Assembly: GCF_010748935.1 (NCBI RefSeq)
Contig: NZ_CP048796.1
Span: forward strand, 561,001-625,000
Source of the DNA: Providencia vermicola
GTDB lineage: Bacteria; Pseudomonadota; Gammaproteobacteria; Enterobacterales; Enterobacteriaceae
DNA: 64,000 nt
Reading direction: 5' to 3'
Shown here piece by piece: positions 51,350-53,793 of this stretch. A model generated the notes under the pieces. The model did not search any database and had not been told where the DNA came from. It saw only the letters and a program-made list of their open reading frames with translations. Every line of letters begins with the position of its first letter. Position 1 is the stretch's first letter. The translations under genes and the position numbers were made by a program.

Positions 51350-51462
51350 GTAAACCTTGTTTTGCGACAAGTTTATAAGCCTGTGAATATTTCCGTATTG
51401 AGAGCAGGTTGTATATAATGGGATAAATAACTATTGATCCCACTTTTACAGAGGTATAAACA

Positions 51463-51753
51463 ATGGAATCAACTATTTCAATGGCCGCTTTTGGTAGCCC
51501 TTGGCAACTTATTATTATTGCTCTACTTATTATTTTAATTTTCGGAACCAAAAAGCTGCGCTCTCTGGGATCTGACTTAGGTGAATCATTGAAAGGCTTT
51601 AAAAAAGCAATGAACGATGATGAAGCTGCAAAGGCTGCAAAAGAAGAGCAAGAAAAACAAGATGCTGATTTTGCACCTAAAAATATTACAGAGCAACAGG
51701 CTGCTGAGAAGAAAGACAGCCCAGTTGAGAGCAAAAATAAAGAGCAGGGTTAA
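51463..51753 (+). CDS. tatA: Tat translocase subunit TatA with rhomboid-cleavable extension
   Basis: 96 aa (E. coli TatA 89). Pore-forming subunit of the twin-arginine pathway. The N-terminus [15 protein letters not shown] precedes the membrane helix ([13 protein letters not shown]), so TatA begins about 8 residues earlier than in E. coli, whose protein starts directly with the helix region. The amphipathic helix [25 protein letters not shown] and an acidic tail follow. P. stuartii TatA has the same kind of extension and is inactive until rhomboid AarA cuts it between two alanines; here the cut would be A8/A9 (inference). First gene of tatABC. Confidence 0.95.
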
Positions 51754-51756
51754 ACC

Positions 51757-52299
51757 GTGTTTGACATAGGTTTCAGTGAACTGCTGCTTGTTGCAGTTAT
51801 TGGTCTTGTCGTATTAGGCCCTGAGCGTCTACCAGTGGCAGTGAGAACTGTTGCTGGTTGGATCCGTGCTATGCGCTCTTTAGCCGCTAATGTGCAAAAT
51901 GAATTGTCACAAGAACTCAAATTGCAAGAATTGCAAGAGACCTTGAAAAAAGTTGAGGAGAAAGCTGGTATGGAAACGCTTTCTCCTGAGCTAAAACAAT
52001 CTATGGATGAGCTTCGCCAAGCAGCACAATCATTAAAATCAGGTTATCAAGCGACGACAGAGGGTGTTGAAAGCGAATTGCAAAAAGCGAAAGAATTAAC
52101 TGACAACTATGATAGTGCAGTTAAAGATGCTCAAAACAATGCTTCAAAAACTCAAGAGTCAGACCCTGATCCTGAACATGCAGCAAAAATGGCAGAAGTG
52201 GTTGAAGAGCCAGTAACGTTATCAGCGCAAAGCGACGACGCTCAACAAACTGCATCGACAACGAAAAAAAATCCTAATCAGACTGAAAGCGAAAAATAG
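51757..52299 (+). CDS. tatB: Tat translocase subunit TatB
   Basis: 180 aa (E. coli 171). N-terminal membrane helix [26 protein letters not shown] (GTG start) and an amphipathic helix with coiled-coil-like charge pattern, then a disordered acidic tail. Works with TatC as receptor for twin-arginine signal peptides. Starts 3 bases after tatA. Confidence 0.95.
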
Positions 52300-52302
52300 A
52301 AC

Positions 52303-53079
52303 ATGGCTGTAAATGATACACAACCACTTATTAGCCACCTCATTGAACTCAGGAAGCGGCTGCTAAACTGTTTGATTACGGTTTTGATTGTTTTCGCTGC
52401 TTTGGCTTACTTCTCAAATGACATTTATCGGTTAGTTGCCGCCCCTTTGATTGATAAGCTCCCTGTTGGTTCTCAAATGAGTGCAACAGATGTGGCATCT
52501 ACATTCTTTACCCCAATTAAACTGACAATGATGGTATCGATATTTGTATCAATACCGGTCATTCTGTATCAAATTTGGGCGTTTATAGCACCTGCGTTAT
52601 ATAAGCACGAACGTAGATTAATGCTGCCTTTGTTGGTTTCGAGCAGCTTCCTTTTCTATTTAGGAATGGCATTTGCTTATTTTGTGGTTTTCCCATTAGC
52701 ATTCGGCTTCTTTGTGAAAACGACACCCGATAGCGTTAATTTTATTCCGGATATTAGCAAATATCTCAGTTTTGTTATGACGCTATTTATGGCATTTGGT
52801 GCCGCATTTGAGGTGCCTATAGCCATTATTCTCTTATGCTGGACGGGAGTGACAACGCCGGAATCATTAAAACGTAAACGCCCATATATTTTAGTTGGTG
52901 CATTTATTGTTGGGATGTTCCTAACGCCACCAGACGTTCTCTCTCAGACTTTACTTGCCGTTCCGATGTACTTACTTTTTGAGTTGGGGGTACTTTTATC
53001 TAACTTTTATGTAGGTAAAGGTCGACGGAAGGCGGATGAAGAAGAAAACGAAGAAAACGAAGAAAAAGAAGATTCTTAG
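52303..53079 (+). CDS. tatC: Tat translocase subunit TatC
   Basis: 258 aa (E. coli 258). Six membrane helices; [16 protein letters not shown] at the N-terminus, [37 protein letters not shown] and [20 protein letters not shown] are family hallmarks. Binds the twin-arginine signal peptide. E. coli tatD is absent downstream; a terminator follows at 53100. Acidic tail of repeated Glu/Asn codons ([11 protein letters not shown]). Confidence 0.97.
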
Positions 53080-53099
53080 TTCATGACTATTGAATTAAC

Positions 53100-53129
53100 A
53101 AAAAAGCCCACTCGATGTGGGCCTTTTTA
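53100..53129. terminator. Bidirectional terminator between tatC and rfaH
   Basis: GCCCAC / GTGGGC stem with A-run before and T-run after, placed between convergent stops (tatC 53079, rfaH 53133). Confidence 0.87.
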
Positions 53130-53132
53130 TTT

Positions 53133-53627
53133 CTATTGAGGTAATTTTTTAAATTGAGAGTTATCAAGCACTTTAGATACATTTTTATTTAAAATATTCA
53201 GCAATAAGATGGATCGCGACTCACCATTTGGCTCATCATAGATAGCTTGTATACCGGAAAAAATACCTTCTGTAATTAAAACATTATCACCATGCACTGG
53301 TGTTTCAGGGGCGACAAGATGAGACAGTGGAGCCTGTTGCAAGAGCTCTATAATTTCATCGGGTACAACGGCAGGTAGTTGCCCAAAACGCACAAAATGA
53401 CTTACACCTCGTGTTGATTGGATTGTTGTCGTATGGATGTCATTATGATCAAATTTCACAAATAGGTAGTTAGGGAATAGAGCTTCTTGTACTGTCACCC
53501 GTTTTCCTCTAACCACTTTTTCTATCTCTGTCATCGGGGTCATGCAAATGACACTTTGCCTATTCAAGTGCTCTATGGCCCTATCAATTTGCCCTCGTTT
53601 ACAATATAGCAAATACCACTTTTCCAT
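53133..53627 (-). CDS. rfaH: Transcription antiterminator RfaH
   Basis: 164 aa (E. coli 162) from the ATG at 53627; the frame extends to 53675 but the extra 16 residues are not family sequence. NusG-paralogue that binds RNA polymerase paused at ops sites and promotes read-through of LPS, capsule and hemolysin operons. MEKWYLLYCKRGQIDRAIEHL and ALFPNYLFVKFD in the NGN domain, and TEGIFSGIQAIYDEPNGESRSILLLNIL in the KOW domain, are diagnostic. The E. coli gene is likewise minus-strand beside tat genes. Confidence 0.95.
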   Translation of the reverse strand: MEKWYLLYCKRGQIDRAIEHLNRQSVICMTPMTEIEKVVRGKRVTVQEALFPNYLFVKFDHNDIHTTTIQSTRGVSHFVRFGQLPAVVPDEIIELLQQAPLSHLVAPETPVHGDNVLITEGIFSGIQAIYDEPNGESRSILLLNILNKNVSKVLDNSQFKKLPQ

Positions 53628-53793
53628 TTTTCTAACCCACGCGACAAAATTATGCTCATCATAACAAATTAACACATAAAAATGTGACTAATCCATTAAG
53701 TAAGAATATCATTCAGAATCAGAAACATATATTAACTTAAACTTACTCAAGAGAGTTAACCATAGTATAACAACTCGTTATCTAGGAGACAGC

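Follow-up and report, generated by a model that had tools for sequence, protein, structure and literature searches.

A predicted rhomboid-processed pro-TatA in Providencia vermicola, and two relatives that carry its N-terminal extension without a detectable aarA

E. coli TatA starts at its membrane helix. The tatA gene of Providencia vermicola encodes eight residues, MESTISMA, before the segment AFGSPWQ that leads into the helix, and the questions raised by this locus are whether TatA is made here as an inactive precursor that a rhomboid protease must cut and, if so, which rhomboid does the cutting. A pro-TatA/AarA system was reportedly described in Providencia stuartii by Stevenson in 2007. 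An earlier note on the same DNA had proposed that the P. stuartii switch operates here as well, with Tat export dependent on an aarA located elsewhere in the genome. The genome studied (G000) comprises 4.43 Mb in two contigs, and the window, meaning the whole stretch of 64,000 nucleotides that was analyzed, corresponds to G000:C1:561001-625000. The features of the locus, in window coordinates, are as follows.

51450..51455, + strand: Shine-Dalgarno sequence AGAGGT of tatA, −7.2 kcal/mol with the anti-Shine-Dalgarno sequence.
51463..51753, + strand: tatA, encoding pro-TatA; open reading frame of 96 aa with an ATG start; Pfam TatA_B_E (PF02416), 50.5 bits against a cut-off of 21.
51463..51486, + strand: pro-segment MESTISMA, 8 codons, read from the sequence; without a counterpart in 31 of the 32 loci read outside the genus.
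51475..51492, + strand: predicted rhomboid site ISMA/AF, codons 5 to 10, with Ile at P4, Ala at P1, the cut between codons 8 and 9, and Phe at P2', following the motif rules reported in PMC2941825.
51481..51483, + strand: in-frame ATG at tatA codon 7, a weak possible internal start that would give MAAFGSPWQ; ATG in 21 of 25 orthologues; Shine-Dalgarno pairing of only −3.3 kcal/mol.
51757..52299, + strand: tatB, GTG start, without an extension; PF02416 at 19.3 bits, just below the cut-off of 21, so that position was also used in naming it.
52303..53079, + strand: tatC; PF00902, 238.8 bits.
53106..53122, + strand: terminator-like stem-loop downstream of tatC, from a consensus scan alone.

The list of open reading frames and the Pfam matches place a TatA-domain protein inside a tatABC operon, and the eight residues before AFGSPWQ were confirmed by the reading frame, by the Shine-Dalgarno sequence, and by conservation in all 24 Providencia genomes. 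A wrong start codon or an annotation artefact was ruled out, since all 25 orthologues share the Shine-Dalgarno sequence, the ATG, and the extension; Shine-Dalgarno pairing at the start has the same energy (−7.2 kcal/mol) in every tatA examined. Downstream, tatD does not directly follow tatC; window positions 53079-53675 hold instead the terminator-like stem-loop and a convergent gene with the assigned name RfaH-like. With identities taken by locus from the best 80 of 335 relatives, the window TatA shares 97% identity with P. burhodogranariea TatA, 96% with P. stuartii NCTC11800 TatA, and 89 to 94% with those of nine other named Providencia records.

The window genome yielded a single TatA match at a threshold of E 0.001. 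No second TatA or TatE, including an unextended copy, was found at that threshold, which a very divergent copy could escape; most genomes of the family that have any TatA/TatE match have two. Because the window genome lacks a second match, export should depend on cutting of the pro-form. Pro-TatA scored below the cut-off of every listed NCBIfam TatA equivalog (best, 93.9 bits; cut-off, 121) and passed only the tatAE subfamily model, and AarA of the window genome passed no NCBIfam equivalog. A rhomboid/pro-TatA system of this kind may go unflagged by automatic annotation.

The distribution of the extension was determined by aligning TatA across relatives, a check suggested in the earlier note. 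The extension was present in all 24 Providencia genomes and in Moellerella wisconsensis (MESTIAMA, L045), with a constant length across the 25 orthologues. Within Providencia, MESTIAMA occurred in 10 genomes, MESTFAMA in 9, and MESTIATA in 2 (P. stuartii NCTC11800 and G001), while MESTIVTA, MESIIVTA, and MESTISMA (the window genome) occurred once each. Its presence throughout the genus points to homology rather than chance, and by this conservation the extension is taken to be real and old. In a family sweep of 246 genomes, 172 genomes representing 106 of 154 genera gave a TatA match; among the listed matches, to which the weakest do not belong, alignments from residue 1 were confined to Providencia (G000, G002, and G017) and to G175, which by its coordinates is the same Moellerella assembly. 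N-termini were read at 32 of the matched loci outside the genus. Moellerella alone was extended, and the other 31 begin at the helix (MGGIS, MAGIS, MGAFS), with TatA starting MGGISIWQ or a near variant, which places the shared Gln seven residues closer to the N-terminus. Among the best 80 of 335 relatives, the extension was found at 12 loci (11 Providencia and 1 Moellerella); among the remaining 68, L103 could not be assessed because its upstream letters are masked, and the rest may still hide upstream in-frame starts. Candidate pro-segments in other bacteria (L050-L052, L061, L101, and L107, aligned from query residue 1 or 2) were rejected, as the letters before M-(L)GGISIWQ look like untranslated upstream sequence. 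In assembly G011, rated 96/4, the tatA frame breaks at about codon 32 (L027) and glpG is also broken, probably through error; G011 was kept in the extension and motif counts and left out of the glpG tree.

Next, the predicted cleavage site was compared with the published recognition rules. P. stuartii TatA is reported to be cut between A8 and A9, with a requirement for a large hydrophobic residue at P4, a small residue at P1, and a hydrophobic residue at P2'; in scanning mutagenesis, the other positions from P5 to P2' accepted varied residues, and cleavage required two or more of G11, S12, P13, and Q15, which break the helix (PMC2941825). The window TatA carries this motif (Ile5 at P4, Ala8 at P1, and Phe10 at P2'), the A8-A9 pair that the earlier note described as a preserved cut site is in place, and the protein has all four helix-destabilizing residues, which are invariant in 25 of 25 orthologues. 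P4, P1, and P2' conform to the rules in all 25, with P1 and P2' invariant and P4 either Ile or Phe. Mapped onto a tree of the tatA DNA neighborhood (the tat tree), amino acid changes numbered one at P5, two at P4 (Ile/Phe), two at P3, two at P2, none at P1, two at P1', and none at P2', giving seven changes in total at the positions outside the motif (P5, P3, P2, and P1'). The P1 codon changed three times and the P2' codon twice on this tree, the amino acid never. Codons 2 and 3 showed no variation of any kind, and codons 11 to 22 showed no amino acid change. The earlier note gave the P. stuartii extension correctly as MESTIATA (NCTC11800, L035), and the window differs from it only at residues 6 and 7 (A6S at P3 and T7M at P2); since both positions varied on the tat tree and were tolerant in mutagenesis, these are considered tolerant sites.

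The P. stuartii pro-TatA/AarA pair has been characterized in work by Strisovsky in 2009 (PMC2941825) and Fritsch in 2012 (PMC3712462), and P. stuartii TatA is a standard substrate in studies of bacterial rhomboids. In an E. coli host without tatA and tatE, TatA of P. stuartii was reported to be functional only with GlpG present, which cut all of the TatA; E. coli GlpG alone activated it to the wild-type level in that host, and a TatA without codons 2 to 8 worked in E. coli without GlpG, although less well (PMC3712462). According to the same source, uncut TatA neither copurified with TatC nor formed large assemblies, and removal of the extension was required for TatC binding and activity. In vitro, cleavage of P. 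stuartii TatA falls at one bond whether the enzyme is AarA, GlpG, or YqgP (PMC2941825). Tat-type defects have been reported for aarA mutants of P. stuartii XD37. In a catheter-infection screen of P. stuartii BE2467, tatA and tatC were reported to be fitness genes and aarA was not; the authors cite two additional rhomboids (PMC7253602).

The window system shares with that of P. stuartii the 8-residue extension, the A8-A9 pair, I, A, and F at P4, P1, and P2', the helix-breaking GSPWQ, and an intact AarA orthologue; it is unlike it in residues 6 and 7 (S-M versus A-T), in the in-frame ATG at codon 7, and in the species. Judged by these sequence features, it is the known P. stuartii pro-TatA/AarA type in a sister species. 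E. coli TatA/TatE with GlpG is alike in TatA family and operon and in that E. coli GlpG is reported to process the P. stuartii extension; however, E. coli TatA is reported to need no GlpG processing (PMC3712462), and E. coli has TatE, whereas the window genome has no second match. GlpG and Rhom7 of Shigella sonnei, the latter reported to be 30% identical to AarA, are active rhomboids, each able to cleave a fusion carrying the TatA segment of P. stuartii, but their reported role is quality control of orphan subunits rather than TatA activation (PMC7232013).

Three rhomboids were matched in the window genome: AarA, GlpG, and a third rhomboid of 192 aa. The aarA that had been predicted to lie elsewhere in the genome was found on the same contig about 2.6 Mb from tatA, downstream of a malic-enzyme-like gene (assigned name). 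It encodes an intact protein of 277 aa (G000:C1:3239177-3240007) with the motifs HSNGMHLAFN, GASGA, and AHIGG, that is, an AarA-type rhomboid with catalytic Ser and His. AarA matches were obtained in 23 of the 24 genus genomes, 22 with all three motifs and one frame-broken, and 36 other genomes searched gave only 6 weak matches (best E, 1.1e-8). The frame-broken gene belongs to P. stuartii NCTC11800 (G009; 94% complete, 3% contaminated), whose aarA (L136/L201) has several breaks. Assembly error is likely; AarA of a different P. stuartii strain has been studied as an active enzyme. Loss of aarA in NCTC11800 was set aside, sequencing error being as likely given the assembly rating, and this genome was counted neither as intact nor as lacking aarA.

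The third rhomboid scored above the Pfam rhomboid cut-off and below every NCBIfam equivalog cut-off. It was matched in 24 of 24 genomes, with the catalytic His present in 23 (as TESHITG in G018). In G019, the third rhomboid (L291, G019:C1:448728) is truncated before the catalytic His and continues into unrelated sequence; the GlpG of G019 has glutamines at both TM2 histidine positions (see below), so AarA alone among its three rhomboids has a complete motif set. The name Rhom7 was dropped for the third rhomboid, as it denotes the AarA-like S. sonnei protein. In 7 of the 24 Providencia genomes (the alcalifaciens/rustigianii clade; L213:8270-10318 in G016, and L129-L135), the AarA frame is 675 to 683 aa long, with the rhomboid fused to a C-terminal beta-propeller. 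The best PDB match of the propeller (382 aa searched) was the surface layer protein 1l0q (E, 1.5e-21). Given the seventh membrane helix of AarA, the propeller is expected on the periplasmic side, where TatA is cut. Literature searches found no publication on a rhomboid-propeller fusion for AarA or Providencia.

Two of the 25 extension-bearing genomes, both draft assemblies, had no detectable aarA: the Providencia metagenome-assembled genome G018 (UBA10704) and M. wisconsensis. G018 is rated 99% complete with 1% contamination and has the extension MESTIAMA, no AarA match, and no more than two rhomboid matches. The aarA slot is empty; the malic-enzyme gene (maeA) ends at 2358 and a TauE-like gene (assigned name) starts at 2431 on one contig (L210), 72 bp apart, and permissive tblastn detected no aarA remnant in the slot (best E, 0.06, elsewhere in the stretch). 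Because G018 groups inside the genus with P. heimbachae, an AarA carrier (95/97 in the tat tree), AarA has most simply been lost in G018. In Moellerella, no aarA gene lies in the 828 bp that separate these flanking genes (L211), tblastn gave no remnant in the slot (best E, 0.075, outside it), and GlpG was the only rhomboid matched. Two short tblastn matches within the Moellerella slot (E, 0.84) lie on the opposite strand and were taken as chance. Beside the empty slot, the malic-enzyme-like gene (L211:6642-8340) is split into two overlapping frames. No publication on Moellerella TatA was found. If the extension is removed in G018 and Moellerella, a protease other than AarA does so, and GlpG is the simplest candidate.

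The GlpG proteins were then compared. GlpG of the window genome is an NCBIfam equivalog (379.4 bits; cut-off, 335), with GLSG and NASHISG present and a TM2 that reads QxxxxQxxFN; the full set of HxxxxHxxxN, GxSG, and the TM6 His is not complete. The TM2 histidines of E. coli GlpG (HxxxxHxxxN), H145 and H150, were matched by alignment. Crystal structures show H150 hydrogen-bonding in the oxyanion region (PMC3690538); a search for H150A of GlpG and the oxyanion found no publication. Both TM2 histidines are glutamines (QQ) in 4 of 24 Providencia genomes (the window genome, G001, P. stuartii NCTC11800, and G019), and both are kept (HH) in the other 20 and in Moellerella, including the two genomes without AarA. 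In other genera, HxxxxH is kept at 28 of the 29 loci read, from 35 other genomes with a match; the one exception (L265, in G083, another genus of the family) has lost both TM2 histidines by a different change (MNFSFIALLIN) and keeps GLSG.

The history of the QQ change differs between trees. The glpG tree groups the four QQ species (87/81), equivalent to one change, and the tat tree rejects them as a clade (p-AU, 0.02), equivalent to two. QQ GlpG has a dN/dS of 0.076, compared with 0.077 for the nearest HH pair and 0.055 and 0.059 for wider HH sets, with dS near saturation; purifying selection on QQ GlpG is strong and at least matches that on the nearest HH pair. Glutamine can in principle stabilize the oxyanion, and QQ GlpG may be fully active. 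When Rv1337 was used to replace AarA, two histidines that correspond by spacing were reported to be needed for pigment and cell shape and not for MacConkey growth or signal (PMC3448690). We hypothesize that a weakened QQ GlpG could account for the need for AarA in P. stuartii, and for the Tat-type defects of XD37 aarA mutants, even though GlpG of E. coli is sufficient in its own host; the literature examined offered no explanation for this need in a species that also has GlpG. A link between QQ GlpG and AarA presence was rejected as statistical evidence, the events being too few.

These comparisons bear on the proposal that the P. stuartii switch operates here and makes Tat export depend on aarA. 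The first part stood, in that a P. stuartii-type pro-TatA, its motif, and aarA are all kept. Dependence on aarA was not established, because three rhomboids are encoded, P. stuartii TatA can be activated by E. coli GlpG, aarA was no fitness gene in BE2467, and two relatives have no detectable aarA; the glutamines in place of both conserved TM2 histidines of its GlpG would speak in favor of dependence in the window genome.

The explanation that we prefer, and hold with good confidence, is that TatA would be synthesized in an inactive form whose eight N-terminal residues lie in the periplasm, that an inner-membrane rhomboid would cut it between Ala8 and Ala9 to leave AFGSPWQ at the new N-terminus, and that only cut TatA would bind TatC and build export assemblies. 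We infer the cut, its site, and the inactivity of the uncut form from the P. stuartii experiments. The main enzyme in this species is most likely AarA; GlpG or the third rhomboid may act as backups. Against this stand the BE2467 screen, by which AarA may be dispensable even in P. stuartii, and the presence of three rhomboids in a genome whose TatA resembles a substrate that AarA, GlpG, and YqgP reportedly cut at one bond in vitro. A different assignment of the enzyme, which we take seriously while leaning against it, is that GlpG, or GlpG with the third rhomboid, is the general pro-TatA processor of Providencia and Moellerella, that AarA is lineage-specific and needed only where GlpG has changed, and that the extension alone does not imply AarA dependence. 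It would account for G018, with an extension and a clean slot from which AarA was most simply lost, and for Moellerella, where GlpG is the single rhomboid match, and it agrees with the full processing of P. stuartii TatA by E. coli GlpG, with the retention of the TM2 histidines in both AarA-less genomes and in nearly all GlpG loci read from other genera set against QxxxxQ in the window genome and P. stuartii NCTC11800, and with the reported partial loss of AarA replacement by Rv1337 upon mutation of its two histidines. However, one or two independent QQ changes, on which the two trees disagree, and two draft genomes are too few for the association to count statistically; purifying selection acts on QQ GlpG, which may be fully active; and BE2467 seems not to need aarA for fitness, even though GlpG of P. 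stuartii NCTC11800 is QQ.

Two readings would remove the need for a rhomboid altogether. Were the ATG at codon 7 (51481) used as a second start, the product MAAFGSPWQ would be a TatA that needs no processing; 20 of 24 Providencia genomes, as well as Moellerella, have ATG at this codon, and the reported activity of TatA without codons 2 to 8 would fit. Its poor Shine-Dalgarno pairing (−3.3 versus −7.2 kcal/mol) and the position of the first start only 18 nt upstream make such use very unlikely. Codon 7 is ACG in P. stuartii NCTC11800 and three relatives, one transition from ATG, and the difference may be neutral at the tolerant P2. Less credible still, and in our judgment almost certainly wrong, is that the extension is a relic in this species, either uncut or no longer inhibitory, as the differences from P. 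stuartii at residues 6 and 7 might suggest; P1 and P2' are invariant and P4 is large and hydrophobic in 25 of 25 orthologues while their neighbors vary, the length is constant, and AarA has all three motifs in 22 of 24 genus genomes. Cleavage of a pro-TatA by a rhomboid, mainly AarA, before TatC binding is the reading that we retain.

The rhomboid/TatA mechanism itself is already known, and the decoupling of the extension from AarA is a modest new observation. No earlier report of this decoupling or of QQ GlpG was found in the literature examined; we do not claim that QQ is absent from print. Together, they make the question of which enzyme cuts TatA testable; QQ GlpG offers a concrete, testable reason for the AarA need of P. 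stuartii, and G018 and Moellerella are two natural cases of a pro-segment without detectable AarA. A further scenario, speculative and in our view improbable, is that the pro-segment is older than or independent of AarA, with GlpG as the original activator in the Providencia-Moellerella lineage, AarA joining in Providencia, and dependence arising only in the P. stuartii group with QQ GlpG. If true, the AarA-TatA switch would amount to a local transfer of a single task from one intramembrane protease to another.
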